Assembly (NCBI GenBank): GCA_900314885.1
Contig: OMWY01000012.1
Span: forward strand, 1-64,000
Reading direction: 5' to 3'
DNA length: 64,000 bases
From: an uncultured Eubacteriales bacterium
Lineage (GTDB): Bacteria; Bacillota; Clostridia; Lachnospirales; Lachnospiraceae
In this document: positions 595-31,907 of the stretch, piece after piece
How positions within the stretch are numbered: the stretch's first letter is position 1
Layout of the letters: every line of letters starts with the position of its first letter
Notes under the pieces: generated by a model
The model's database searches: none
What the model was told of the DNA's origin: nothing
The model's input: only the letters and a program-made list of their open reading frames with translations
Program-made: the position numbers and the translations under genes

Positions 595-3171
595 ATGAAA
601 TACGGACATTTTGACGATGACAGACGGGAGTATGTCATTACTACACCTAAGACCCCGCTACCGTGGATTAATTATCTTGGAAGTGAGAGCTTCTTCTCGC
701 TACGCTCAAATACCGGTGGCGGTTACAGTTTTTATAAGGACGCAAAACTCTTAAGGCTTACCCGCTACCGCTACAATAACTATCCGACGGATACCGACGG
801 CCATTATTTTTACATAAAAGATGGGAATACCGTCTGGAATCCCGGATGGCAGCCATGTAAGACCGAGCTTGATTTCTATGAATGCCGTCATGGTATGGGA
901 TATACTGTTATTACCGGTGAGAAGGACGGCGTCATAGCAAGGGAAGAGATGCTTGTGCCGGTCCATGACAATGCGGAAATCACCCGCCTTACCGTCAAGA
1001 ACGATACCGATGCGGTCAAGAACCTTGATATTTACAGCTATGTTGAATTCTGCCTGTGGAACGCCATGGATGATATGAGTAATTTCCAACGTAATTTCTC
1101 CACAGGTGAAATCGAGTATGAGGATGGAATAATTTACCATAAGACTGAATATCGCGAGAGAAGGAATCATTATGCGGTATTCGCGGTGAACAGCAAGATT
1201 GACGGCTTTGATACGAGCAGGGATGTATTCTGCGGAGCTTACCATGGAAGCGCGGATCCGGAAATGGTACTTAAGGGTGAAAGCGGTAATTCCATCGCTC
1301 ATGGCTGGGCCCCGGTCGGCAGCCATCATATTAAGGTTACCCTCAAGCCGGGAGAACAGAGGAAATATATATTTGTATTGGGCTATTGTGAGAATCCTAA
1401 GGATAAAAAATTCATTCCTAATACAAATTTCAAGACAAAAGAGGAAGCCTACGAGGCCTACAAGTCAAACCGCGGGAATGCCATATTCACTGCTGATGAG
1501 CTCTATGGAAAGACCTATGTCAGTACATTGGCTGATTTATATATGGGCGGAGTCATCAACAAGGAGCCTGCGAAGGCATTGATCCGGAAGTACAGCACGG
1601 ATGAGCAGTTTGAGAAAGCCATGCGGGAGCTTAACGATTACTGGGACGAGCTTTTATCGAAATTCCATGTTGAGTCGGGTGATCCTAAGCTTGACCGCAT
1701 GGTAAATATCTGGAATCAGTACCAGTGTATGGTTACCTTTAACATGAGCCGGTCGGCATCATATTATGAGAGTGGCCTCGGAAGAGGGATGGGCTTTCGA
1801 GATTCCTGCCAGGATCTATTAGGCTTTGTGCATCTCATTCCCGACAGGGCAAGAGAGAGAATCATAGATATAGCGAGCACCCAGTTAAATGATGGAAGCG
1901 CTTACCACCAGTATCAGCCACTCACGAAGCGGGGCAATGCCGAGATAGGCGGAGGCTTTCACGATGATCCATTATGGCTTATAGCCGCGGTTTCAGCCTA
2001 TATCAAGGAGACCGGAGATTATTCGATTCTTGATGTGGAATGCCCATTTAACAACAATGAAAATGATAAGGCGCCGTTAATGGAGCATCTTAGGAGAAGC
2101 TTTAACTATATCAGGAACGAAAAAGGCCCACACGGACTTCCGCTTATCGGAAGAGCTGACTGGAACGATTGTCTCAATCTTAACTGCTTCTCTGATACAC
2201 CGGGAGAGAGCTTCCAGACAACAGGTCCGGACGAGGGGCCTGTTGCTGAAAGTGTTTTCATAGCGGGAATGTATGTAAAATACGGACACGAATACGCTGA
2301 TATCTGTGATAAGTTGGGGCTGTCGGATGAGGCGGCCAATGTAAGAAGTGAAGCTGACAAGATGACGGAGGCAGTACTTTCGAGCGGTTATGACGGTGAG
2401 TGGTTCATCAGAGCCTTTGACGCTAACGGAAATCCTGTCGGAAGCAGTAAATGCGATGAAGGCAAGATTTTCATCGAGTCCCAGGGCATGTGCGTAATGG
2501 CCGGAATTGGCGTAGAGCCGGGAAATGAAGAGAGTCCGGCAGCAAAAGCCCTTAAGAGCGTTGAGAAATATCTCGATTCCCCTCGCGGCGTAATGCTTCA
2601 CCAGCCGGCCTATACATCTTATAAGCTTGAGCTGGGCGAAATAGGCTCATATCCACCGGGATATAAAGAAAACGCGGGTATTTTCTGCCACAACAATCCG
2701 TGGATTTCGATAGCGGAAACTAAGCTTGGCCATGGCAACAGGGCATTTGATATATATAAGAAGACCTGCCCTGCCTATTGCGAGGAAATAAGTGAGATTC
2801 ACAGAACAGAGCCATACGTGTACTGCCAGATGGTAGCCGGCATGGATGCCGCGAAACCGGGCGAAGGCAAGAACAGCTGGCTCACCGGTACTGCGGCGTG
2901 GACATTTTTCAATGTCAGCCAGTACATTTTAGGAGTACGGCCTACCCTTGACGGCCTGTCACTTGACCCTTGTCTAAGAAGCGATATGCTCCGCGTTCAT
3001 TGTGTAAGAATATATCGAAATATTATATATGATATAACAATTGATAATGGCGAGGGCCATGAGTCGGGAGTTAAGGAGATGCTTGTCGACGGAGATTCAG
3101 TGATCGGCAATGTAATACCTTACAATAAGAGCGATGAGGGCAAGACAATAAAGGTTATTGTCAGAATTTAA
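595..3171 (+). CDS. Cellobiose phosphorylase-like protein (GH94)
   Basis: 858 residues. Family GH94 enzymes split cellobiose with inorganic phosphate into glucose 1-phosphate and glucose in the cytoplasm, saving ATP during cellulose use. The sequence is rich in GH94 landmarks: [12 protein letters not shown] near residue 400, the catalytic-region motif [10 protein letters not shown] (D522 and D525, one being the general acid), then GESFQTT, and [10 protein letters not shown] and GTAAWTF in the last third. No signal peptide or membrane segment. It is somewhat longer than the ~810 residues usual for the family. Start: AAGGAG lies 5 bases before the ATG. It stands alone, with its own promoter upstream and a strong promoter for the next gene downstream. 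A chitobiose or laminaribiose phosphorylase is possible, but the [15 protein letters not shown] wording is closest to cellobiose phosphorylases as I recall them. Confidence 0.9.
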
Positions 3172-3240
3172 ACTGCTTCGGTGTAGAAATGACAGACACA
3201 TACCTTAAAGAAATTTATGACAAAAATGTGACAAAATGTA

Positions 3241-3269
3241 TTGACATTCAGAAAGTGTTAAGGTAATAT
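3241..3269 (+). promoter_or_regulatory. Strong sigma-A promoter for the subtilase gene
   Basis: Perfect TTGACA (3241-3246), 17-base spacer, TAATAT (3264-3269). Confidence 0.85.
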
Positions 3270-3284
3270 AAATATTGTCTAAAG

Positions 3285-3326
3285 AAGGACATGTGAACTT
3301 ATCTTTATGAAAGTTTGCATGTCCTT
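3285..3326 (+). promoter_or_regulatory. 5' leader hairpin of the subtilase gene
   Basis: AAGGACATG (3285-3293) and CATGTCCTT (3318-3326) form a perfect 9-bp stem with a 24-base loop, just after the expected transcription start and before the AAGGGGG ribosome binding site. ATCTTTT follows the stem, so it could be a weak attenuator or simply protect the 5' end of the mRNA. Confidence 0.55.
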
Positions 3327-3358
3327 ATCTTTTAATCTAAATTAAGGGGGTTCTAAGA

Positions 3359-6300
3359 ATGAGAAGGAATCTGAAGTACGCAAGCGTTTTGCTTGCAATG
3401 TTCCTTACTATCGGTTCCATGCCGGTCAGTACTCACGCTGCGACAGATGACGTTGAGGAAATTACTGATGGGTTTGTGACCAACCTTGACGGCAAGCAGA
3501 AGGCAGTCAAGGACGTAAAGCTGTCGGGGCTTGCCGGTGATGATCTTGCTGAGGTTATCAAGACTCACAGTGATGATGACATTGTAACAGTCATCGTTGA
3601 CGTAAAAGAAGAGAGCGCTGTTGAGCAGTTCGCCGAGGAAATCAAGGATGCCGAAGCTGATGGGAAAACCGACCCTGATGGAACAAACGGCGCGGCTAAG
3701 GTCCTCATGGACAATGCAACTGACGTCAACCATATTGATGACAAGGTAGAGGATATCAGTGAAAAAGCAGAGGAGGCAGTAGAGAAGGACGGCGAAACTG
3801 CCGAAACAATCCAGACCTACAATACTGTATTTTCGGGATTCTCTATGAATATTCCGTTTGGAGAGATTAACACCATCGCTAAGCTAAAGGGTGTCAAGGG
3901 GGTTTATCTTGCTCAGGAATATACTATCCAGTCTGAGGATGAAGGCGCAAGTGACGAGGTAAATATGGTCACCAGCCGCGAAATGATAAATACAAGCCTT
4001 GCGAACGAGAGCGGATACACAGGCCTAGGTCAGGTTGTAGCTGTCCTCGATACCGGTATTGACTATCACCACGAGGCATTTAACGCAGACAAGGTCGACA
4101 CAGCTTATACGAAGGTAAGCTTTTCTGCTATCCGGAGGAAGCTTGATGTTCTCGACCTTGATGCTGAGAAGCTTTACAAGGATAAGACGGGTAAGAAGCT
4201 TACCTCTGAAAAGAGCGGAGTAGAAAATGATACAAATATTTATCATTCAGACAAGGTTCCTTACGGCTTCGATTATACGGATATTGATGTAAACCCTATC
4301 CCTGTACACTCTGAAAATCATGGGACTCACGTAGCCGGAACCATTGCCGGAAACAGCGATAAAATCCAGGGCGTAGCTCCGGATGCCCAGCTCTATTCCA
4401 TGAAGGTCTTCGATGACAAAGGAAAGACAAGCGACGCTACCCTTCTCGCGGCTCTTGATGATGCTGTTCTTCTCGGAGCTGACGTTATCAACATGAGCCT
4501 TGGTTCAAGCGCGGGTATATCTTCAGAGGATAATCCTGTTCTTAACACAGCCTATGACAACGTAAGAATCGCCGGCATTAACCTTGACGTATCAGCCGGA
4601 AATTCAGGCACAGCCGCTGACAGAAACAATTACGGCGGATATTTCAAGACAAGCGACCCTGAATACGGAATTGTTGGTTCACCTTCAACACTTCCTGCTT
4701 CGCTTTCGGTAGCGAGCGTTGAGAACGATCACATGAATTATGTGAACTATATCACGGCTATTCGCTCGAAGGCGGCTGTTTCGACAGGTGAAAATACAGA
4801 TACCGACAATGACGATGAAGGAAGCGAAGCTTCAGAAGGCATAAATATTTCTTATATCGATACCCTTAGTGGAGATCTTGCCTTCAGCGCTCTTCCTGTA
4901 AGAACATATGCTGCTGTCAACGTAGGCAAGGGAACATTAGAAGAGACCCTCGCTAAGGCTGATGAGCTTAAGGGTGGCATAGCTCTTATTGAAAGAGGCG
5001 GCCTTACCTTCAGCGAGAAGGTTAAAAACGCCACAGCCTGCGGAGCGGTTGCCTGCGTTATTTACAACAACCAGCCGGGCACAATAAGCATGAGCCTTTC
5101 AGAGGTAACCATTCCTACCGTTTCCATAACGGAGGAGGATGGCGAGAAGATTCTTGCTGAGGCTAATGAGAAGGGAATCGCTGTTCTTAAGGTAAACGGT
5201 AAGGCTGAGACAAGCTTCGTAAGCCCTACGGGATTCGAAATCAGTGATTTCTCATCATGGGGTCCTACTCCTGAGCTTAAAATTAAGCCTGAGATTGCGA
5301 TGCCGGGTGGAAATATTTATTCAGCGTATTATGTTGAGAATGGCGAGAGTGTCTATGGTCTTATGAGCGGTACTTCAATGGCAGCTCCTCATATGGCAGG
5401 CGCCTCAGCGGTTATCCGTCAGGCACTCCTTGAGAAGAAGAAGGGCCTCACAGGAATAGAGCTTGAGGCACTTGTAAATGAACTTGCCATGAGTACTGCC
5501 GATCCTCTCGTACAGAAGGGCAGTGATGAGACTGACGTATTCTATCCTGTAAGACAGCAGGGTGCCGGCCTTGTAGACCTTAATGAGGCTGTTAAGTCTC
5601 CGGTTTATCTTACAGTAGAAGGCTCTGAGCGTCCTAAGGCTGAGCTTGGCGACAGCGCTGACGGAACATTTTCGTTCACCGTTACATTTAACAATATGAG
5701 CTCCGTTAAGAAGGTTTATCCGCTTGAGACCGTAGTTGAGGCTGAGGGCTACGCAAATCGCGCGGGCATGACTGTTTCATCTAAGAGCGATATTGATATT
5801 ACGAAGGGAACTACTGTTACCTACAGCGGTGAGACCGTAAACGGAAATAAGGTAACTGTTCCGGGAAATGGCACCGCGACCGTAACTGTAAACATTTCAC
5901 TTGACTACTCTGATTCCGTAATCGCTGACCTTGCTTCGAAGTATACAAACGGCTTCTTCGTAGAGGGATATTTCTTCGCGAACAGGGGACATGAGCTCGA
6001 CTATTCAGTTCCGTTCTTAGGCTTTGCGGGTGACTGGTCAGCAGCTCCTATATTTGACGCAAGCTACTATGATTACAAAGCATATGGCACTATTCCTTAT
6101 TTCGATGACGGAAGCATAGTATATAACGACGTTAAGGGAAAATCTAACTACCTTGGCTGCAATCTCTTCGACCGTCTTATCAAGGGAAACAAGAATACAG
6201 CATACGATATCAACAATATTGCGATTTCAAGATCCTCACTTGGCAAGGTAAGCTCCGTTCTCGCTACCCAGTCATATTCAATCAGAGGCTCCAAGAACTT

Positions 6301-22540: not shown

Positions 22541-23821
22541 ATGGTTAGAGCAATAGTCGGAGCAAACTGGGGAGATGAAGGGAAGGGCAAGATTACGGAT
22601 ATGCTTGCCGCTGATTCCGATATCGTTGTAAGATTTCAGGGAGGCAGCAATGCAGGCCACACCATAGTAAACCACTATGGCAAGTTCGCGCTTCACCTTC
22701 TTCCTTCGGGAGTTTTCTACGACCACACAACAAGCATTTTAGGAAACGGTGTAGCCCTTAATATTCCTTTCTTCATTAAGGAACTTAATTCAATAACCGA
22801 AAAGGGCGTTCCGAAGCCTCATATTCTTGTATCAGACAGGGCTCAGGTTCTCATGCCTTATCATGTACTTCTTGACCAGTACGAGGAAGAGAGACTCGGT
22901 AAGAACTCATTCGGAAGCACCCAGTCAGGTATAGCGCCATTTTTCTCAGATAAATACGCGAAGATTGGTATCCAGGTATCGGAGCTCTTTGATGACGAAG
23001 TTCTTATGGACAAGGTTGACAGAGTCGTAGTTGAGAAGAATGTCCTCTTCAGAGAACTCTATCATAAGCCTGAGCTTGATAAGGACGAGGTTCTTAACAC
23101 ACTTCGCGAATACCGCGATATGATAGCCCCATATGTCGCTGACACAGCGAAATTTATCCAGGACGGACTTAAGGAAGGCAAGACTGTTCTTCTCGAAGGA
23201 CAGCTCGGAACCCTTAAGGACCCTGATTTCGGTATATATCCTATGGTTACGTCCTCTTCACCGCTTGCGGCCTACGGAGCAATCGGAGCGGGTATTCCAC
23301 CATATGAAATCAAGGACATTATTACCGTGGTTAAGGCATATTCAAGCGCTGTCGGAGCCGGTGAATTCGTAAGTGAACTTCATGGCGATGAGGCTGATGA
23401 GCTAAGACGCAGAGGCGGAGACGGCGGCGAGTATGGCGCTACGACCGGCAGACCTAGACGCGTAGGCTGGCTTGATACTGTAGCGACCAGATACGGAGTA
23501 AGGATGCAGGGCGCAACCGAGGTAGCCTTCACGGTTCTTGATGTCTTAGGCTATCTCGATGAGATTCCTGTCTGCACAGCTTACGAGATAGACGGCAAGG
23601 AGACAGAGGATTTTCCTGTAACGGTTAAGCTTAAGAAGGCGAGACCTGTATTTACTACACTTCCGGGTTGGAAATGTGATATCCGCGGCATAAAGAAGTA
23701 CGAGGATCTTCCTGAGAACTGCCGCAATTATATAGAGTTTGTAGAAAAAAGGATCGGTGTGCCTATCACCATGATAAGCAACGGTCCCGCAAGAGAAGAT
23801 ATTATTTACAGAAAAAAGTAA
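22541..23821 (+). CDS. purA: Adenylosuccinate synthetase
   Basis: 426 residues. It joins IMP and aspartate with GTP to form adenylosuccinate, the first committed step to AMP. The GTP loop GANWGDEGKGK (residues ~7-17), QGGSNAGHT, and the later GEFVSEL, TGRPRRVGWLD and GVRMQGA motifs are all present. AGGAGAG lies ~9 bases before the ATG. It follows the ROK kinase by 2 bases and precedes the large DUF5717-like gene by 23 bases. Full length for the family. No purine riboswitch is visible nearby. Confidence 0.97.
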   Translation: MVRAIVGANWGDEGKGKITDMLAADSDIVVRFQGGSNAGHTIVNHYGKFALHLLPSGVFYDHTTSILGNGVALNIPFFIKELNSITEKGVPKPHILVSDRAQVLMPYHVLLDQYEEERLGKNSFGSTQSGIAPFFSDKYAKIGIQVSELFDDEVLMDKVDRVVVEKNVLFRELYHKPELDKDEVLNTLREYRDMIAPYVADTAKFIQDGLKEGKTVLLEGQLGTLKDPDFGIYPMVTSSSPLAAYGAIGAGIPPYEIKDIITVVKAYSSAVGAGEFVSELHGDEADELRRRGGDGGEYGATTGRPRRVGWLDTVATRYGVRMQGATEVAFTVLDVLGYLDEIPVCTAYEIDGKETEDFPVTVKLKKARPVFTTLPGWKCDIRGIKKYEDLPENCRNYIEFVEKRIGVPITMISNGPAREDIIYRKK

Positions 23822-23844: not shown

Positions 23845-26800
23845 ATGGAGCAGAAGATAGCCGGATACGCACGAGAAGTCATGAACTATAAGCGGCCGGG
23901 TCTTTCTGCGTCTCCTGCCGGACTTAACATAACAGTACAGGCCGGTAACAAGATTACCGGCTCTTTTTTGTTATTTTCATCAGACAAGGAAGACGCATCC
24001 GATATCAGGGCGTATCTTACCGTCGATGACTGTTATCTTACTCTTGATACTGTTTCCTTTGCGGAAAGGGCGAAGAGAATCCACTTCACCTATGATGCCT
24101 CCTTCCTGCCGGCAGGCCTAAAGTACGGCGGTATGATCAACGTGGTGTCAGACCATGGCGGCATTTATGTTCCTTACAATGTAGATGTAACGGAAAAGAA
24201 AATTATGTCATCGGCCGGAGAGATAAAAAATCTCTTCCAATTTGCCTCATTCGCGAAGGACCATTTCGCGGAAGCGGCGAAGATACTTAGAAACCCCGAT
24301 TTCTTAATGCTTATACCGGAGAAGAGAGAGGAAGACAGGGTCTTTGTAAATGCTATCGCCAGAGATACAGACAGCCTTCATGCTCTTGACCTCTTCCTTG
24401 TCAGGGACAGGAAGAAGTCTCCTGTAAGGATAAGTACAGAAAAAACAAGGTTTGAATATCATCTCACAGACAGGACTCTCGATGACAAAATTATTATAAA
24501 GAAGAATACCTGGGGATGGATTAGAGCTAAAATCAAGGTCACAGGTGACTTCATCATCTGTGATAAGACGGAGCTTACCATGGATGATTTTGACGGTGAT
24601 ACCGCGACGCTTGTATTTACGGTAGACCCGACAAGATCGAGAAAGCTACGCCAGAGCGGGAAAATAGTTATTGAGAACGCGAATGATAGGCTCGTCTTTG
24701 ATATTTCTTTGGTCGGATTTTCAGCTAAGACAAGTATTACCGCCGAAAAAAATTCATTTGAAAACGCGGTGAAAACCTTTTACACCCTGGCTGATAACCG
24801 CATGGGAAGGCTCGCTTTAAATGAGGCAGTTACCAGAGCCCGTTCCTATATGTACACAGTAGGAATCGACGGATATGAGACAGTAAGCGGTCTTACGGAC
24901 GTTTATCTCAATATAATCAGTGGGAATACCTCAAGCGCCGTCTATGATTTTGCGAAAATAAAGAAGACTCCCGAAAATGAGAAGATTTTCTTCTATCTGA
25001 ATTTCCTCGCCTCGAGTGATGCGGCGGAAAAGAAGCGCGAGGCAGCAGGGATGAGAGAGTTAGCAGGGAAGACGGGGGATGAGTTCGCCTTTTTCCTCTA
25101 TACCCTTATGGATGAACGCTATATTAATGATAAGAGTAAGAGACTGGGAGCCTTTTCGCGTCTCTATGACGAAGGCATGAGAAGTCCGGCCTTATACTTA
25201 GAGGCATTTCTCATTTATAAGGACAGGCCGGAGCTCTTAAACCGTCTCGGAAGATTTGAGATAGCAGTATTCACCTTTGCGGCAAGGCACGGGTACCTTA
25301 CTGACGAGGAGCTTTCCGACAGGTATGTATTTCTTGCCGGAGATATAAGGAAGTACGAGCCTCTGCTTTTGCTGACCCTTGAGAAAATTTATGAAAATAA
25401 ACCTGATGATGAATGTCTCGCTGTCATTTGCTCGCAGATTCTCCTCTCGCAGTCATTTACAAGGTCGAGCCACAGCTATATATCTGAGGGAGTGAAGCGG
25501 GGACTTAGGCTTTCGGGCATTTATGAGGTTTATATCGAGACTCTTACCGATAAAAATGAGCGGATAGATAAGAGCGCCTTTGAATATTTCAAATTCGGCA
25601 ACCCTCTTAATAACGACAGAAAGGCCGCGATTTACGCCTTTCTTGTGAAGCACAGAAATGAGAGGGAATATTCTGACTACTTCGCGACCTATAAGGATGA
25701 GATTATCCGGTTTGCCGAGGATATGGTTGATTCCGGAACGCTTTCGGATGACATCAGCGTGATAGTGAGGACTGCCCTGTCTGACAAAAACTATGAGAGC
25801 AAGTTTGGCGAGAGCCTCGTAAATGTCATGTTCAAGGCCAAAATAAGCTCTGACAGGTTTAAGGATGCGGAGGTCGATACATTTTACAAGGAATATGAGG
25901 AACCGTCTGTAACAAGAATGACTATTGATGGCGCTTATACAGATATATTCGGCAGCGCTTCCATATCCTTCCTTAAGGACGGTGACGGCCTGCTCTATCC
26001 TGTGTCTGATTATGGCAAGGCTGAGAAGCAGTTCACGGCAGTTCCATACCTTGAGACCTGCTATGAGGCCGGATGTCGCGATGTGAAACTTCTCACCGAA
26101 ATATACTCCCAGAATGAGAAATATCACAGAACGGTCGGCGACATATCGGAAATATGTGAGATCCTAAGTCACGCGGACTGCCTCACCGAGGACTGCAGGC
26201 GTGCGGCTCTTGTGAAGTTAATAGAATATTATTACGGCAATTATGACGGAGCTAAGCTTGACGCGCTTATAAATGAGTGCGATTTTAAAATCGCCGACCG
26301 CGAGAAGGGAGAATATGTCGCGAGCCTTGTGCTTTCAAGGAATATGTATCCTCTTGGAATCGAGGCACTTAAATATCTGGGGCCGAAGAGGTCGCAGGTG
26401 AAGTTTCAGGCGAGAATCGCGGGCAAGCTCCTCTATGATGAGGAAATTCATGACGATGCCTTTCTCGATTATACGGCCATGGCACTCATGCGCCACAAGA
26501 AGGCGGACGATGATCTCCTTATATGGCTTCGCGACCACCATGAGGGCGGCATCGCCGAGATGATGGAAATATATGAGGTCCTCGAGGAGAAGGAATTACT
26601 CACCTCGGAATACGCAGGCAAGGTCCTTGAACAGGCTCTCTTCACCGAGGACATTCCATTTTCAATCGGAAATATATATGAAATCTATATGGCCGATCAT
26701 GATGAAAATGACCTGCTCGCGAAGGCGGTCATCAACTATATGTGTTACCGCTACCTTACGGGAGACAGGAAGATAGATGCGGAATTTCTTCCTGTGATCA

Positions 26801-27420
26801 AGAAGAACGCCATAGCGGGCGACGATATGATGTTCATCCTGACCTATCTCAAGATTCTGGCGAACCGAGATGAGCTCGATGAGACAGAACATGATTACGC
26901 CGTAATGATGATGAAGAGACTGTCCGAAGGTGGAATTGTCATGCCGTACTTTAAGAAATTCATTGGAAAATGCACAGTTCCGGCTGAGATAATTAACAAG
27001 ACCTATGTAAGCTTCTTCGCGGAGCCGACTGATACGGTTACGATTCATTACAGGACATTCATAGAGGATGGAACCGATACGCCTTATACGACTGAAAGCA
27101 TAAAGAGCGTATTTAAAGGAATATTTGTAAAGGAATTCCTCCTCTTCGCTGATGAATCGGTCCAGTATTATATTACGACCTCGAGCGCCGGCAACAGCGA
27201 GGAAAGGGTTATGAAGTCCGAAGCCCTTCGTACCATGAATGAGGCCGAGAATTCCGGAGAAGACGGAGGCAGTCTTTTCACCGATTTAAATGAGTGCTTT
27301 ATCGCGAAATATCTCGGAGATGAGCTCTCGTTTAAAGAATTTTTAAAGCGATATACCTTAAATGAATTAATTATAGACGATATATTTAAGCTTGATAATC
27401 AGACAGATGACGTTAGATAG
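23845..27420 (+). CDS. DUF5717-like protein, large beta plus alpha-solenoid scaffold (function unknown)
   Basis: 1191 residues. I recall Lachnospiraceae proteins of this size and type as DUF5717; not searched. Residues ~1-300 are beta-rich with two repeats of an Ig-like layout (an N-terminal KRPGLSASPAGLNITVQAGNKI stretch split over two strands, then VRISTEKTRFEYHL and VIENANDRLVF). Residues ~310-1080 are almost entirely helical with Tyr/Leu spacing like an alpha-solenoid of TPR or HEAT type. The last ~110 return to beta (TVTIHYRTFIEDG). No signal peptide, membrane segment, or enzyme motif is visible. AGGAG lies 3 bases before the ATG. It is the first of four packed genes (gaps 26, then overlaps of 13 and 17 bases), which argues for one complex, with this protein as scaffold. 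Confidence 0.85.
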   Translation: MEQKIAGYAREVMNYKRPGLSASPAGLNITVQAGNKITGSFLLFSSDKEDASDIRAYLTVDDCYLTLDTVSFAERAKRIHFTYDASFLPAGLKYGGMINVVSDHGGIYVPYNVDVTEKKIMSSAGEIKNLFQFASFAKDHFAEAAKILRNPDFLMLIPEKREEDRVFVNAIARDTDSLHALDLFLVRDRKKSPVRISTEKTRFEYHLTDRTLDDKIIIKKNTWGWIRAKIKVTGDFIICDKTELTMDDFDGDTATLVFTVDPTRSRKLRQSGKIVIENANDRLVFDISLVGFSAKTSITAEKNSFENAVKTFYTLADNRMGRLALNEAVTRARSYMYTVGIDGYETVSGLTDVYLNIISGNTSSAVYDFAKIKKTPENEKIFFYLNFLASSDAAEKKREAAGMRELAGKTGDEFAFFLYTLMDERYINDKSKRLGAFSRLYDEGMRSPALYLEAFLIYKDRPELLNRLGRFEIAVFTFAARHGYLTDEELSDRYVFLAGDIRKYEPLLLLTLEKIYENKPDDECLAVICSQILLSQSFTRSSHSYISEGVKRGLRLSGIYEVYIETLTDKNERIDKSAFEYFKFGNPLNNDRKAAIYAFLVKHRNEREYSDYFATYKDEIIRFAEDMVDSGTLSDDISVIVRTALSDKNYESKFGESLVNVMFKAKISSDRFKDAEVDTFYKEYEEPSVTRMTIDGAYTDIFGSASISFLKDGDGLLYPVSDYGKAEKQFTAVPYLETCYEAGCRDVKLLTEIYSQNEKYHRTVGDISEICEILSHADCLTEDCRRAALVKLIEYYYGNYDGAKLDALINECDFKIADREKGEYVASLVLSRNMYPLGIEALKYLGPKRSQVKFQARIAGKLLYDEEIHDDAFLDYTAMALMRHKKADDDLLIWLRDHHEGGIAEMMEIYEVLEEKELLTSEYAGKVLEQALFTEDIPFSIGNIYEIYMADHDENDLLAKAVINYMCYRYLTGDRKIDAEFLPVIKKNAIAGDDMMFILTYLKILANRDELDETEHDYAVMMMKRLSEGGIVMPYFKKFIGKCTVPAEIINKTYVSFFAEPTDTVTIHYRTFIEDGTDTPYTTESIKSVFKGIFVKEFLLFADESVQYYITTSSAGNSEERVMKSEALRTMNEAENSGEDGGSLFTDLNECFIAKYLGDELSFKEFLKRYTLNELIIDDIFKLDNQTDDVR

Positions 27421-27446
27421 TATAAGGGAAAGGAGGGTGATTGCTG

Positions 27447-28706
27447 ATGGATGAGAGGCTTTTGGCCGGAGTGGATTTATGCGCCGACTATACCCAGATA
27501 GCGTATTATTCCATGAGAAAGGCAGGACCTATCGCCCTGTCCCGTGACGCTGATGACGGTGAACGCCTGATTCCGACCCGACTTGCGCTAAGAAAAGCAA
27601 AGCACGAATGGATAATAGGCGATGACATCCTGTCGGCAATCGAAGAGGATGAGAGCGATGTCGAGGAGGTTCCTGATTTCCTAAAGGCCATCGTCGCAAA
27701 TGAAGAAATTACGGTTGATGGCGAGAAATATGAGAGCAGTCACCTGCTTCAGATATATCTAAGACGGCTCTTAAATGTTTTACGGACATTTGACAAGTAT
27801 GTGGAGATAGGCTATATAGTTTTTACATCCGATATAGCCGGAGAAACATTTTCGACGATACTAAGAGACGCCCTTCACAGAATTAAAATAGAAAAAGACC
27901 GATATTCGTTTGTGAGCCATGAGGAAGCCTTCATTTCATATGTAATTCATGAAAAGAGGGACATCTGGCAGAATGATGTAATAAAATTTGAATTAGATGA
28001 TAAGGCCTTGCACTCAGAAAGACTTACGATAATAAATAATCTTACACCTATGGCAGCGGCTATAGAAAGGCGGGATTTTTCCGATATCACGGTCGAAATG
28101 ATAGAAGCTGACCGCGAAAAGGCGGCGGGAAGTTTTCTTACGTTAGCCTCGCTCTGTATAGACAAGCATGACATTTCAACCATATTCGCTGTTGGTAGAG
28201 GCTTCCTTACAGATTTCGCCGACAGGAAACTGGCTGACCTCTCTACGGGAAGACACGTGTTCCGAGGCCAGAACCTGTATGTAAGCGGAGCCTGCGAGCT
28301 CGCCCTTCTAAGGTCAAGAAATGAGGATGAGAAATATATATATTTTGATGAGGACAGGGTGAGGTCGGGAATATCAATTCTGACCTACGTTGACGGAAAG
28401 GAACGCGAGGCAGTCCTGATACATCCCGCAACCCTGTGGTATGAGGCCTCGTCTGAGCTTGATTTAATTGTAAGCGATGTCGAGGAGCTGACCATACAGA
28501 TAAAGGATTTTATTACGAAGAAGACTGAACGGCGGTTCATTTCACTGACCGGCCTTGAAAATGATGAAGGCAACTTCGTAAGGCTAAGAGTTGAGGCGAG
28601 CTTTAAGGACCGCAATACCTGTGAAATTACCGTTAAGGATATGGGATTCGGTACATTTGTACCTACCACCAACAGAATTTACGAGTTGACATTATGCAAA
28701 AAATAA
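27447..28706 (+). CDS. DUF5716-like protein, Hsp70/actin-fold (function unknown)
   Basis: 419 residues. The N-terminus GVDLCADYTQIAYYS has the position and pattern of the Hsp70/actin phosphate-1 loop. IGYIVFTSDIAGETFSTILRDAL, VSHEEAFISYV and FAVGRGFLTDF match the order of the connect and adenosine-type motifs. VFRGQNLYVSGACELAL is like the VARGAA region. Residues ~330-419 are beta (LTIQIKDFITKKTERRF...) and resemble a small substrate-binding domain. A clear phosphate-2 DxG motif is missing, so ATP hydrolysis is doubtful. I recall the family as DUF5716, found beside DUF5717. Start at 27447: AAGGAGGGTGA lies 6 bases upstream. The 3' end overlaps the next gene by 13 bases. Confidence 0.85.
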   Translation: MDERLLAGVDLCADYTQIAYYSMRKAGPIALSRDADDGERLIPTRLALRKAKHEWIIGDDILSAIEEDESDVEEVPDFLKAIVANEEITVDGEKYESSHLLQIYLRRLLNVLRTFDKYVEIGYIVFTSDIAGETFSTILRDALHRIKIEKDRYSFVSHEEAFISYVIHEKRDIWQNDVIKFELDDKALHSERLTIINNLTPMAAAIERRDFSDITVEMIEADREKAAGSFLTLASLCIDKHDISTIFAVGRGFLTDFADRKLADLSTGRHVFRGQNLYVSGACELALLRSRNEDEKYIYFDEDRVRSGISILTYVDGKEREAVLIHPATLWYEASSELDLIVSDVEELTIQIKDFITKKTERRFISLTGLENDEGNFVRLRVEASFKDRNTCEITVKDMGFGTFVPTTNRIYELTLCKK

Positions 28707-29536
28707 TCAGATGTACCGGGCGCCTCGCTGAAAATCCGTACAAGGTTCCCGGAACTGCCCGCAGACTCTACTCGATAGAGGAAATCTGCTACTACGTTTA
28801 TAACAATATTTACAGTATAGATATTGGCTTCTTCTCTCCGGACCTGCTCGCTTTTATTGAGAATGACCTTGACCTTCCGGAAACCGCGAAGGCGATGAGG
28901 GACCTTCTTGCAAATGGTCATGGGGTCAGGGACATGGTAGCGGCCCTTATGCTATCCTGCGATCTCTATGGCAGGAAAGAGACAGAGGAGCTCCTGAAGC
29001 TGATGGTGAGGCTTTCGGGATATTCCGGATGGGAGAGAAGGGCTCATATAGGCTATAAATACCTTCGCGACGGTTCATATGTTCAGGCACTGAAGCATTT
29101 CAGAGGAATTCTTAAAGAGGAAAATCTTTCTGAAAATGACTACGGGCAGGTGCTGCTTGCGACAGGGATAGCCTTGGTTCACACCGCAGGCTACAGGGAA
29201 GCGGCCGACTGCTTCTATAAGTCATACCGGGCCTGCCATGAGAAAAAAGCGCTTATATACACCATCCTCTGCTTCAAGCTGGGTGGGCTTGGCAAGGAAT
29301 TCGAAGAGAAAATCGGTGAGATGCCTAAGGATGATCCGACTGTTATGGAAGCGGAGAAGCTGTGGGATGAGGCTAGGGAAAAGGCGCTTAATTCCAAGAC
29401 ATATACAGGCCTTTTAGAAATATTGGAAGGACTTTCAGGTGTAAATGCCACAGAGGCTCGTTTGAAATTAAACACGATTTTAGGCGATCTTAAGGACCAG
29501 TACAGGAAGGGCGTGGAAAATGGGCTTGTTTCATAG
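28694..29536 (+). CDS. TPR-like helical repeat protein (function unknown)
   Basis: 280 residues, mostly helical. Residues ~105-185 read as TPR-like pairs (YKYLRDGSYVQALKHFRGIL and GYREAADCFYKSYRACHEK). The N-terminal ~45 residues hold MQKIIRCTGRLAENPYKVPG and an aromatic stretch (EEICYYVYNNIYS). No membrane segment. The gene starts within the end of the Hsp70-like gene and its end overlaps the next gene, so translation is coupled. TPR proteins commonly serve as adaptors for Hsp70 proteins, which fits the neighbour, but no EEVD-type tail is present in the partner. Confidence 0.82.
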   Translation: MQKIIRCTGRLAENPYKVPGTARRLYSIEEICYYVYNNIYSIDIGFFSPDLLAFIENDLDLPETAKAMRDLLANGHGVRDMVAALMLSCDLYGRKETEELLKLMVRLSGYSGWERRAHIGYKYLRDGSYVQALKHFRGILKEENLSENDYGQVLLATGIALVHTAGYREAADCFYKSYRACHEKKALIYTILCFKLGGLGKEFEEKIGEMPKDDPTVMEAEKLWDEAREKALNSKTYTGLLEILEGLSGVNATEARLKLNTILGDLKDQYRKGVENGLVS

Positions 29537-30764
29537 AAAAAAGAAGGAAGATTCCGACAGCGAAAAGACTAATATTTTCGGAAAAAATAAAAAAGCCGAC
29601 GAGAAATCTTCCGAAAATGTGGCTGATGATTTTGACCCGGATAATATTACAAAAAACGGACCACTTATCGGCGACCTTTCAAAAATTGAATTCGATGTTC
29701 CTGAGGATCATGAGGGATATATAAGAAAGAGCTGCGATAACATAAGTCAGGCGAAGGCCGCTATAGAATCAGCAAAAAATGAGTATTCCGAGGTAAATAG
29801 TTATCTCCTTGACGTGCAGACCATAGAGGAAATGCCATCTGAGGATAAGGAGGATCTCACGGAGTGCGCAGAGCATTTGCTCGAATTGAAATCAGATCTC
29901 GATACGCTTGAGAAAAAGAAGAGCGATATAACAGGGCTTCAATTCAGGCTTATTGAAAAAAACGAAGCCTCTGTAAGCAGGGACCTGAAGCAGCTAAAGA
30001 GCGAAGAAAAATATCTTAATACAATTAAAAATGATTTGCGTCTCCTAAAGGGCGAGCATGATAAATTAATAAGAGAAGAAAAGGATGAGAGAGAACGAAG
30101 ACGGTTCCTTAGAAATATGTCTCTTATCGGCGGATTAATAATTATTATATTATTTATTCTGTATTTTGTACTTTACTTTATGTATGAGGCGGAGGTAATG
30201 ACACCCTTTATTCTTACCGCGGGTGGCGCTCTCTTAATAGCTGTATATTTACTTATTGAGTCAGACCGGAATAAGAAAAATATAAAGCTTGTCGCGGCGA
30301 AAATAAATAAAACAATAGGTATTTCAAATACAGTAAAAATAAAATATGTCAACGAGACAAACTCGGTTGATTTTATTCGTGACAGATATGGCGTAAATAA
30401 TTCGGGTGAACTTGAATACAGACTTACGCAATATAATGACATGAAGGAAAATGAAGATCGCAGAAAAAAGACATCAATCACATATGACAATAATTCCGCG
30501 AGACTTTCAGCAATTCTTGGAGCGGCGGGACTTCACGATCCTGATATATGGATTTACCAGGCGAATGCCATAGTAGACCATAAGGATATGGTAGAGATAC
30601 GTCACCGTCTTAATACGAGAAGAGCCCGTATTCGAACCGGAATAGAAAATAATGAGAAGACGATAGAGCTTGAGACAGAGAAAATTCATCGTTTTCGTGA
30701 TCATTTCCCTGATGAGAAGGGAATGGTTGCCGACATCATGGACGATTACCACATAGTAGTATAA
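29520..30764 (+). CDS. Membrane protein with coiled coil and two transmembrane helices (function unknown)
   Basis: 414 residues. A charged N-terminus (MGLFHRKKKEDSDSEK) leads to a long coiled coil (~75-195, rich in Glu/Lys with AIESAKNEYSEVNSYLLD-type heptads). Two hydrophobic helices follow (~200-222 GGLIIIILFILYFVLYFMY and ~226-245), and a C-terminal helical, charged cytoplasmic domain with another coiled-coil stretch near the end. Both long arms face the same side, most likely the cytoplasm. It overlaps the preceding gene by 17 bases and would anchor the three soluble partners to the membrane. Ends 18 bases before aroC. Confidence 0.82.
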   Translation: MGLFHRKKKEDSDSEKTNIFGKNKKADEKSSENVADDFDPDNITKNGPLIGDLSKIEFDVPEDHEGYIRKSCDNISQAKAAIESAKNEYSEVNSYLLDVQTIEEMPSEDKEDLTECAEHLLELKSDLDTLEKKKSDITGLQFRLIEKNEASVSRDLKQLKSEEKYLNTIKNDLRLLKGEHDKLIREEKDERERRRFLRNMSLIGGLIIIILFILYFVLYFMYEAEVMTPFILTAGGALLIAVYLLIESDRNKKNIKLVAAKINKTIGISNTVKIKYVNETNSVDFIRDRYGVNNSGELEYRLTQYNDMKENEDRRKKTSITYDNNSARLSAILGAAGLHDPDIWIYQANAIVDHKDMVEIRHRLNTRRARIRTGIENNEKTIELETEKIHRFRDHFPDEKGMVADIMDDYHIVV

Positions 30765-30782: not shown

Positions 30783-31907
30783 ATGCCAGGATCTAATTTC
30801 GGAACCCTGTTCCACATCTCAACCTTCGGTGAGTCCCACGGCCCGGCCCTCGGTGTCGTTATAGACGGCTGTCCGGCAGGTCTTGCCCTTACAGAAGAAG
30901 ATATAATTCCATATATGAATCGCCGACGCCCGGGCCAGAGTCAGTACACCACGGCCAGAAGCGAGAGCGATACCCCCGAAATTCTCTCGGGAACCTTTAA
31001 CGGTGTCACTACCGGAGCCCCGATAGCCATTTTAATTAGAAATACAGACCAGCGGTCCAAGGATTATTCGGAAATTGCGGATATTTTCCGTCCCGGCCAT
31101 GCGGATTTTACCTTTTTTGAAAAATACGGAATCCGCGATTATCGAGGCGGCGGCCGGTCGAGCGCGAGAGAAACCGCAGCCAGGGTTGCGGCAGGCGCCG
31201 TAGCCGCGAAGCTCCTTAGGGAATTTAATATCGAAGCGATTGCCTTTACAAAATCGATATCAGATATTACGGTCGACGATAAATTCTTAGACCCGATGGA
31301 GAATAGGGTGCGCCGTGACGACGTACTTAAAAGCCCCGTATTCATGCCCGACAGCGCTGCCGGCGAAAGGGCATGCGCCTTCCTTGACAAGAAGCGGGAA
31401 GAACTCGATTCAACGGGAGGAGTCGTAAGAATCCATGTTACTGGCCTTCCGGCGGGACTGGGAGATACGGTGTTTGAAAAGCTTGACGCAAGACTTGCCG
31501 GGGCGCTAATGTCAATCGGCGCTGTCAAGGGTGTCACGATAGGGGATGGCTTTAGTGTGTCCCTTTCGACCGGGTCTCTCGATAATGACAGCTTCTACGC
31601 TGATGACGATTTAAATATTCACACTACGTCAAATCACGGTGGCGGAATATTAGGCGGTATGAGTACCGGAGGTATGATTATAGCCGAAGCTGCATTTAAG
31701 CCTACTCCATCTATAGCAAAGGAGCAGGAGACGGTTGACAAAGCGGGAATTTCGCGTAAAATAAGTATAAAAGGACGGCATGACCCTACGGTTGTGCCAC
31801 GGGCGGTTGTTGTATGTGAGTGCATGGTAAACCTTGTCATAGCTGATGCCCTCCTCACAAACGCCACCGCAAGGCTCGACAATTTGCATAAAATATATAG
31901 GAGATAG
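30783..31907 (+). CDS. aroC: Chorismate synthase
   Basis: 374 residues. It converts 5-enolpyruvylshikimate 3-phosphate to chorismate with reduced FMN, the last shikimate-pathway step. Family signatures: FGESHGPALGVVIDG near the N-terminus, RRRPGQSQ, GHADFTFFEKYG, DYRGGGRSSARET and, later, SNHGGGILGGMSTG. GGAAGGAG lies 3 bases before the ATG. The stop codon is the first base of structured repeat E2. Full length. Confidence 0.97.
   Translation: MPGSNFGTLFHISTFGESHGPALGVVIDGCPAGLALTEEDIIPYMNRRRPGQSQYTTARSESDTPEILSGTFNGVTTGAPIAILIRNTDQRSKDYSEIADIFRPGHADFTFFEKYGIRDYRGGGRSSARETAARVAAGAVAAKLLREFNIEAIAFTKSISDITVDDKFLDPMENRVRRDDVLKSPVFMPDSAAGERACAFLDKKREELDSTGGVVRIHVTGLPAGLGDTVFEKLDARLAGALMSIGAVKGVTIGDGFSVSLSTGSLDNDSFYADDDLNIHTTSNHGGGILGGMSTGGMIIAEAAFKPTPSIAKEQETVDKAGISRKISIKGRHDPTVVPRAVVVCECMVNLVIADALLTNATARLDNLHKIYRR

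Follow-up and report, generated by a model that had tools for sequence, protein, structure and literature searches.

Four closely packed genes, here called A, B, C and D, lie on the plus strand at positions 23845 to 30764 of a 64,000-nucleotide stretch of DNA (hereafter the window) from an uncultured Eubacteriales bacterium of the family Lachnospiraceae (NCBI GenBank assembly GCA_900314885.1, contig OMWY01000012.1). A sequence-only reading of the window had named the products of A and B as DUF5717 and DUF5716 and had proposed that the four proteins form a membrane-attached, chaperone-like or cytoskeleton-like complex. Protein B is a true Hsp70 homologue, and the cluster very probably descends from a larger Hsp70 machine, a fuller form of which is found in other families of the order. 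The genes are as follows.

23845..27420, plus strand: gene A, DUF5717, predicted scaffold, 1191 amino acids (aa); Pfam PF18984 (DUF5717_N, 1.1e-157) and PF18983 (DUF5717, 2.6e-57); AlphaFold2 mean predicted local distance difference test (pLDDT) 83.9
27441..28706, plus strand: gene B, DUF5716, putative pseudo-Hsp70, 421 aa from a TTG start; Pfam PF18980 (DUF5716_C, 3.9e-78)
28694..29536, plus strand: gene C, 280 aa; conserved N-terminal domain (residues ~1-110), then tetratricopeptide (TPR) repeats
29520..30764, plus strand: gene D, 414 aa; coiled coil, two transmembrane segments, coiled coil; predicted accessory membrane subunit

The open reading frame listing agrees with the four packed genes of the sequence-only reading, whose 26-base gap between A and B fits an in-frame ATG at 27447 rather than the TTG at 27441 taken here as the start of B. 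B and C overlap by 13 bases and C and D by 17, while purA ends at 23821, 23 bases before A, and aroC starts at 30783, 18 bases after D. The names given there proved correct (DUF5717_N, DUF5717 and DUF5716_C in Pfam), with scores above the model cut-offs (262.9 against 34.7 bits for DUF5716_C; 526.8 and 194.8 bits, each against 25, for the two DUF5717 models). By hydropathy, D contains two hydrophobic segments, and A, B and C contain none.

The assignment of B to the Hsp70 family was obtained in several ways. The B profile used here comprises 40 sequences; an alignment of 21 B sequences was too divergent for patterns, and a tighter one worked. This profile matches DnaK in the PDB (6e-6) in the N-terminal phosphate-1 region and, more weakly, in a core stretch of the beta part of the substrate-binding domain (SBD-beta), in which LegLpkRpnkttRlrievefedektlkvtvkDlGFGe of the B profile corresponds to the DnaK-type LTGIPPAP...VTFDIDANG...VTAKDKGTGK. 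HHalign aligned the profile with residues 1-482 of DnaK, that is, the nucleotide-binding domain (NBD) and SBD-beta, at a probability of 98.7% (E 3.4e-15 for a single comparison). The AlphaFold2 model of B is confident (pLDDT 90.5; predicted template modelling score, pTM, 0.85), and its top Foldseek matches are full-length DnaK/Hsp70 structures (6.4e-18), with Ssz1, a subunit of the ribosome-associated complex (RAC), among them. An actin-fold nucleotide-binding domain followed by SBD-beta is thus found in B by AlphaFold2, Foldseek and HHalign, which upholds the Hsp70/actin fold seen earlier from the sequence. B is not among the matches of the general Pfam HSP70 model in the bacterium's own genome and is therefore a remote homologue. 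Its two domains are placed as follows, on the basis of profile, model, HHalign and motif counts.

27456..28340, plus strand: B residues 6-300, Hsp70-type NBD in which the phosphate-1 and phosphate-2 loops are degenerate and subdomain IIB is mostly deleted
28365..28697, plus strand: B residues 309-419, SBD-beta-like domain, with no SBD-alpha lid after it

Within this fold the nucleotide site has largely decayed, as motif counts in a joint alignment of 40 Lachnospiraceae B sequences with DnaK indicate. The phosphate-1 motif DLGTT is not kept (D8 is present in 35/40, and T11 and T12 are replaced in nearly all), and neither is the phosphate-2 motif DLGGGT, in accordance with the earlier remark that it could not be recognised: D194 persists in 23/40, and the commonest residues at G196, G197, G198 and T199 are D, E, D or E, and G. 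The catalytic residues, like the phosphate-2 glycines, are gone in the great majority of the 40 sequences, with K70 changed to L, Y, V, F or I, E171 mostly to H or Y, and T199 replaced. The GA of the adenosine motif is kept in 40/40. Between phosphate-2 and the adenosine motif, an interval made up mostly of subdomain IIB, B has 51-69 aa (median 62) compared with 131-134 in DnaK. Subdomain IIB closes over the nucleotide in DnaK and is part of the DnaK surface gripped by GrpE. A median of 18 aa remains in B after the SBD-beta motif, compared with 157 in DnaK, leaving no room for an SBD-alpha lid. Judged by these motifs B is a pseudo-Hsp70, and without the lid, the catalytic residues and most of IIB it probably neither hydrolyses ATP nor cycles; the suspicion of the sequence-only reading that B is non-hydrolysing becomes probable through the loss of K70, E171, T199 and the phosphate loops.

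A and B belong to the core gene set of the Lachnospiraceae. Among 250 sampled genomes of the family, nearly all of different genera, DUF5716 was found in 244 (199 of the 202 near-complete ones) and DUF5717_N in 245, so that A and B are each present in ~98%, mostly as single copies, as the earlier suggestion of a core cell function had led one to expect. Three genomes (G318, G380 and G512) lack both, a joint absence with a Fisher p of 8e-5, uncorrected for relatedness or assembly gaps. In 39/39 loci from different genomes, A, B and C are adjacent in the same order and on the same strand, with identities to the window proteins of ~18-33%; since the order is kept at such divergence, the arrangement is not due to chance. 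The flanks vary by genus (transporters, purA/aroC, purF-purB, gltX, valS, a hisC-like aminotransferase, dnaK-dnaJ), and the linkage therefore belongs to the cluster itself and not to a frozen region. D was detected in 113/250 genomes (109 convincing, the remaining four at E ~1e-4) and is thus present in ~44% of genera and missing in ~56%, for which reason the core is the three genes A-B-C. The four-gene unit proposed before therefore stands in its A-B-C part, with D optional; likewise, co-occurrence in a fixed order holds for A, B and C, whereas strict co-occurrence fails for D, and attachment to the membrane is not a general property.

Several observations concern the surroundings of the cluster. 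In one locus (L064 of genome G457, 2399-5620), dnaK and dnaJ stand immediately upstream of A-B-C-D, which may hint at a link with the housekeeping DnaK. A divergently transcribed HisC/CobD-like aminotransferase gene lies upstream of A in three loci (L047, L051 and L067), and open reading frames of similar size lie upstream of A in many further loci. At the genus level, the block ROK-purA-A-B-C is kept in 4/4 relatives examined, with D in 3/4. Between the window and locus L242, the cluster proteins have diverged fast (identity 41% for A, 54% for B, 64% for C and 48-52% for D), and the same comparison gives 91% for PurA and 63-64% for AroC; dS is saturated for most pairs, and dN/dS is hence not computable there. 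A second weak DUF5716 match in the bacterium's own genome (L012, 2.7e-4) contains an internal stop, falls below the cut-off and was judged to be due to chance.

With the Pfam model PF18980, the near restriction to Lachnospiraceae stated by the sequence-only reading holds: in a class-wide draw 10/10 members of the family and 0/281 other genomes were positive, and the rest of the order likewise gave nothing with this model; a scan of GTDB contigs with the single window B as the query found nothing either. Named contigs were also scanned and gave 198 relatives, the best 80 of which are labelled Lachnospiraceae, Butyrivibrio, Kineothrix, Clostridium sp. metagenome-assembled genome (MAG) or Clostridiales MAGs. 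At the level of family profiles the restriction does not hold, as the A profile has relatives in 60 of the 131 genomes sampled from the order's other families. Outside the order A and B were not found; for A, searches of the rest of the class and of another 60 genomes drawn from the phylum gave no relative. Scans of plasmids and of viral contigs contained no relative, and a mobile or phage origin was dropped.

In the other families the cluster is fuller. There, A often consists of two adjacent proteins, AN (~400 aa) and AC (~900 aa), which are fused in L204, L206, L207, L210, L219 and L220. The further parts are an Hsp70 of ~558 aa (H1), a protein X of 565-645 aa, the B homologue (~410-535 aa), a second Hsp70 of ~545 aa (H2), a third of ~690 aa (H3), C and sometimes D. 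In 13-14 loci, A or AN-AC, H1, X, B, H2 and H3 follow each other contiguously on the same strand, mostly with gaps of <50 bases. At its C-terminus, X has a GrpE domain (Pfam 3e-13, 2.2e-9 and 2.6e-11, and 5.4e-12 in the shortened copy of L202). In H1, H2 and H3, every phosphate-loop and catalytic residue checked is kept in all copies. H1 and H2 stop after SBD-beta; H3 runs on into a VWA domain, and this unusual Hsp70::VWA architecture with a DxTxS MIDAS-like motif was seen in L206, L211 and other loci. The long C-terminus of H3 was considered as an SBD-alpha lid, which its identity as a VWA domain rules out. Outside Lachnospiraceae, A and X occur together in 59 genomes, A alone in one, X alone in one and neither in 70 (Fisher 4e-35, uncorrected for relatedness). 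Within the family, full-length X was found in 0/15 genomes searched, one of which gave a weak match in a 211-aa frame of the kind that an ordinary GrpE would give. The link of A, B and C to chaperones is much stronger than the sequence-only reading could show, because members of these protein families here lie in one cluster beside a GrpE fusion and three intact Hsp70s; of the earlier alternatives, the chaperone-like one thus gained support, and nothing specific was found for the cytoskeleton-like one.

Some loci depart from this arrangement. In family f82 (L212 and L213), AN and AC have no other cluster genes beside them and X is encoded at a different place, on another contig in G642; the cluster can therefore break up. 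L202 (G541) is intermediate, with an X of 279 aa (the GrpE part), a B of 494 aa and D present, and its H3 and C are each in two frames through a frameshift or an assembly error. The bacterium's own genome encodes, outside the window, a second Hsp70 (G000:C17:86382-88061) in a 1107-aa frame, much longer than DnaK. G292 has an Hsp70 in a frame of 566 aa, which is shorter and matches the profile similarly.

The descent of B was examined in a tree of 74 sequences, in which B and H2 form one clade (support 100) and Lachnospiraceae B another (98), with the B proteins of other families paraphyletic to the latter. It is moderately secure that Lachnospiraceae B nests within the B lineage of other families, which is sister to the intact Hsp70 H2. 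One intact H2 even passes the DUF5716_C cut-off (35.2 against 34.7 bits). B proteins of other families have already lost K70, E171 and T199 and keep subdomain IIB (123-143 aa); Lachnospiraceae B has lost most of IIB too, in a lineage that also lost the GrpE fusion X. Read most simply, this would be a stepwise reduction. The ancestral machine would have been encoded in the order AN, AC, Hsp70 (H1), GrpE fusion (X), pseudo-Hsp70 (B), Hsp70 (H2), Hsp70::VWA (H3), TPR protein (C) and, in some cases, D. H2 would have been duplicated and one copy would have decayed to B; in Lachnospiraceae, H1-H3 and X would then have been lost, AN and AC fused and B trimmed, its GrpE-docking subdomain disappearing along with the ATPases and the exchange factor.

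The AlphaFold2 model of A (pLDDT 83.9, pTM 0.57) is confident in the domains and not in their relative placement, and it agrees with the earlier description of a beta plus alpha-solenoid protein. In the order's other families, many genomes encode residues 1-300 on their own, as the protein AN. The Foldseek likenesses listed below have low TM-scores and are analogies of fold.

23902..24225, plus strand: A residues 20-127, first Ig/ASH-like beta-sandwich (AlphaFold2 strands; Foldseek matches to ciliary central-pair proteins and the CEP192 SPD-2 domain)
24430..24717, plus strand: A residues 196-291, second Ig/ASH-like beta-sandwich (AlphaFold2, Foldseek)
24736..25830, plus strand: A residues 298-662, alpha-solenoid part 1 (AlphaFold2; weak Foldseek matches to the TPR superhelices Naa15, Ctr9 and SKI3)
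25834..26028, plus strand: A residues 664-728, small beta module within the solenoid (AlphaFold2)
26041..26994, plus strand: A residues 733-1050, alpha-solenoid part 2 (AlphaFold2)
26998..27231, plus strand: A residues 1052-1129, C-terminal beta module, lower confidence (AlphaFold2)
29030-29251, plus strand: C residues ~113-186, TPR repeats (PDB profile matches; Pfam TPR_1 in homologues)

The window C alone gives a weak, sub-threshold TPR match (0.13), whereas Pfam TPR_1 is matched by 22/39 C homologues and the C family profile matches TPR proteins in the PDB at 4.2e-39, which makes C a TPR protein by family profile, as first suspected from the letters. Residues ~1-60 of C contain a conserved PYxxxxxxxxxYSIEELCYYxxNN without a Pfam match. 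C was also considered as a J-protein; this was ruled out, a DnaJ domain being present in C of neither Lachnospiraceae nor the other families. In D, hydropathy peaks at residues 195-228 and 224-249 place the membrane segments at ~30123-30260, with coiled coil on either side; its weak Pfam/NCBIfam matches (DUF2207_C, TIGR04211) were below the cut-off and were set aside as coiled-coil noise.

We infer that the proteins of the Lachnospiraceae cluster, A, B and C among them, make up the core of a complex in the cytoplasm. A would be the scaffold, with its Ig/ASH domains and solenoid, B a fixed binding or docking subunit in a role comparable to that of Ssz1 in yeast RAC, C a TPR arm for docking peptides and D, where present, a membrane tether. 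Tentatively, the complex may be an ATP-independent scaffold or holdase that collects particular clients and hands them to a partner, possibly the housekeeping DnaK. As an overall explanation, a reduced Hsp70 machine that has lost its ATPases and exchange factor and now serves as a scaffold or holdase has, in our estimate, a probability of about 0.5. Four points weigh against it. First, the cluster showed no J-domain protein. Second, that B no longer binds or hydrolyses ATP is read from its motifs. Third, the branches of the tree are long (1.81 for the window B), for which reason the nesting of B is moderately and not fully secure. Fourth, A occurs in no more than 60 of the 131 genomes sampled from other families, which leaves room for gains or transfers in place of losses.

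Among other explanations, the strongest, itself unlikely, is a regulatory complex in which the pseudo-Hsp70 acts with A and C as a signalling or switch subunit and governs, at the membrane, some process of the envelope or of growth, with no unfolded clients. Short bacterial Hsp70s such as StkA can regulate (PMC4319316), D could anchor the system at the membrane in about half of the genera, and the fast divergence of A-D (A at 41% where PurA is at 91%) would suit such a role; however, the GrpE fusion and the three catalytically intact Hsp70s of the ancestral cluster point to chaperone cycling, and no kinase, response regulator, cyclic nucleotide or other signalling domain appeared in the proteins scanned. 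It is improbable that the complex is structural or cytoskeletal, with B building or capping a polymer through its actin-like domain and A as a structural scaffold: the actin/Hsp70-type fold of B and the resemblance of A to ciliary central-pair protein domains and solenoid scaffolds are outweighed by the SBD-beta of B, by relatives that are Hsp70s and not MreB or ParM, by the top Foldseek matches to DnaK and by the loss of the nucleotide site that actin-like polymerisation normally requires. Equally doubtful is an ATP-locked Hsp70 in which B binds nucleotide in an altered pocket, as D8 (35/40) and the adenosine-motif GA (40/40) are kept but the phosphate-1 and phosphate-2 loops and most of IIB are missing. 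That A, B and C are merely co-transcribed neighbours without a joint function is very improbable, given an order kept in 39/39 loci while the flanks change, three genomes lacking both A and B, and an association that extends beyond Lachnospiraceae.

The Lachnospiraceae rank with the most abundant bacteria of the human gut, and the cluster, present in ~98% of their sampled genera, is built around DUF5716 and DUF5717, which are names without a described function. Reading it as a reduced multi-Hsp70 system gives both families a testable role and turns the family into a natural experiment on what stays of an Hsp70 complex once the ATPases and exchange factor go; it also brings to light the fuller multi-Hsp70/GrpE/VWA cluster, which is apparently undescribed. 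In open-access PMC text, no paper on DUF5717 or on the cluster was found, the sole paper mentioning DUF5716 is unrelated, and nothing relevant came up on clusters of several Hsp70s in such bacteria; Lachnospiraceae go unmentioned in a survey of DnaK paralogues (PMC11019930). The component families are known; what appears to be new is how they are assembled, that one family retains them almost universally and that a pseudo-Hsp70 forms the core. On balance, we lean towards an undescribed machine of up to four Hsp70s (three intact, one of them VWA-fused, and one pseudo-Hsp70) with a GrpE fusion, a scaffold and a TPR protein, which would persist, stripped of its ATPases, nearly universally in Lachnospiraceae and would now work free of ATP.

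Among known systems, the DnaK-DnaJ-GrpE system resembles this one in that the homology between B and DnaK spans NBD and SBD-beta and the fuller cluster has motif-intact Hsp70s and a GrpE-domain protein. It differs in that B lacks the catalytic residues, most of IIB and the lid, in that the Lachnospiraceae cluster has no ATPase, GrpE or visible J-domain protein, and in that a large Ig/ASH-solenoid scaffold and a TPR partner are foreign to the DnaK system. Ssz1 does not hydrolyse ATP. Eukaryotic RAC (Ssz1-Zuo1) employs an Hsp70 without ATP hydrolysis or a proper lid as a structural partner, a role that B may share; however, there is here no relative of Zuotin or another J-protein, the predicted partner of B is the solenoid scaffold, there is no sign of ribosome binding, and the origin would be independent. 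MreB and ParM differ from B, which has SBD-beta and has lost the nucleotide motifs. StkA of Myxococcus xanthus (540 aa), which represses exopolysaccharide and for which an Ssz1-like regulatory role was suggested as one option, is also a short Hsp70 whose gene cluster is separate from the housekeeping DnaK, but A, C and D are not related to its partners StkB (SCP2-like) and StkC (PhaE-like) (PMC4319316).

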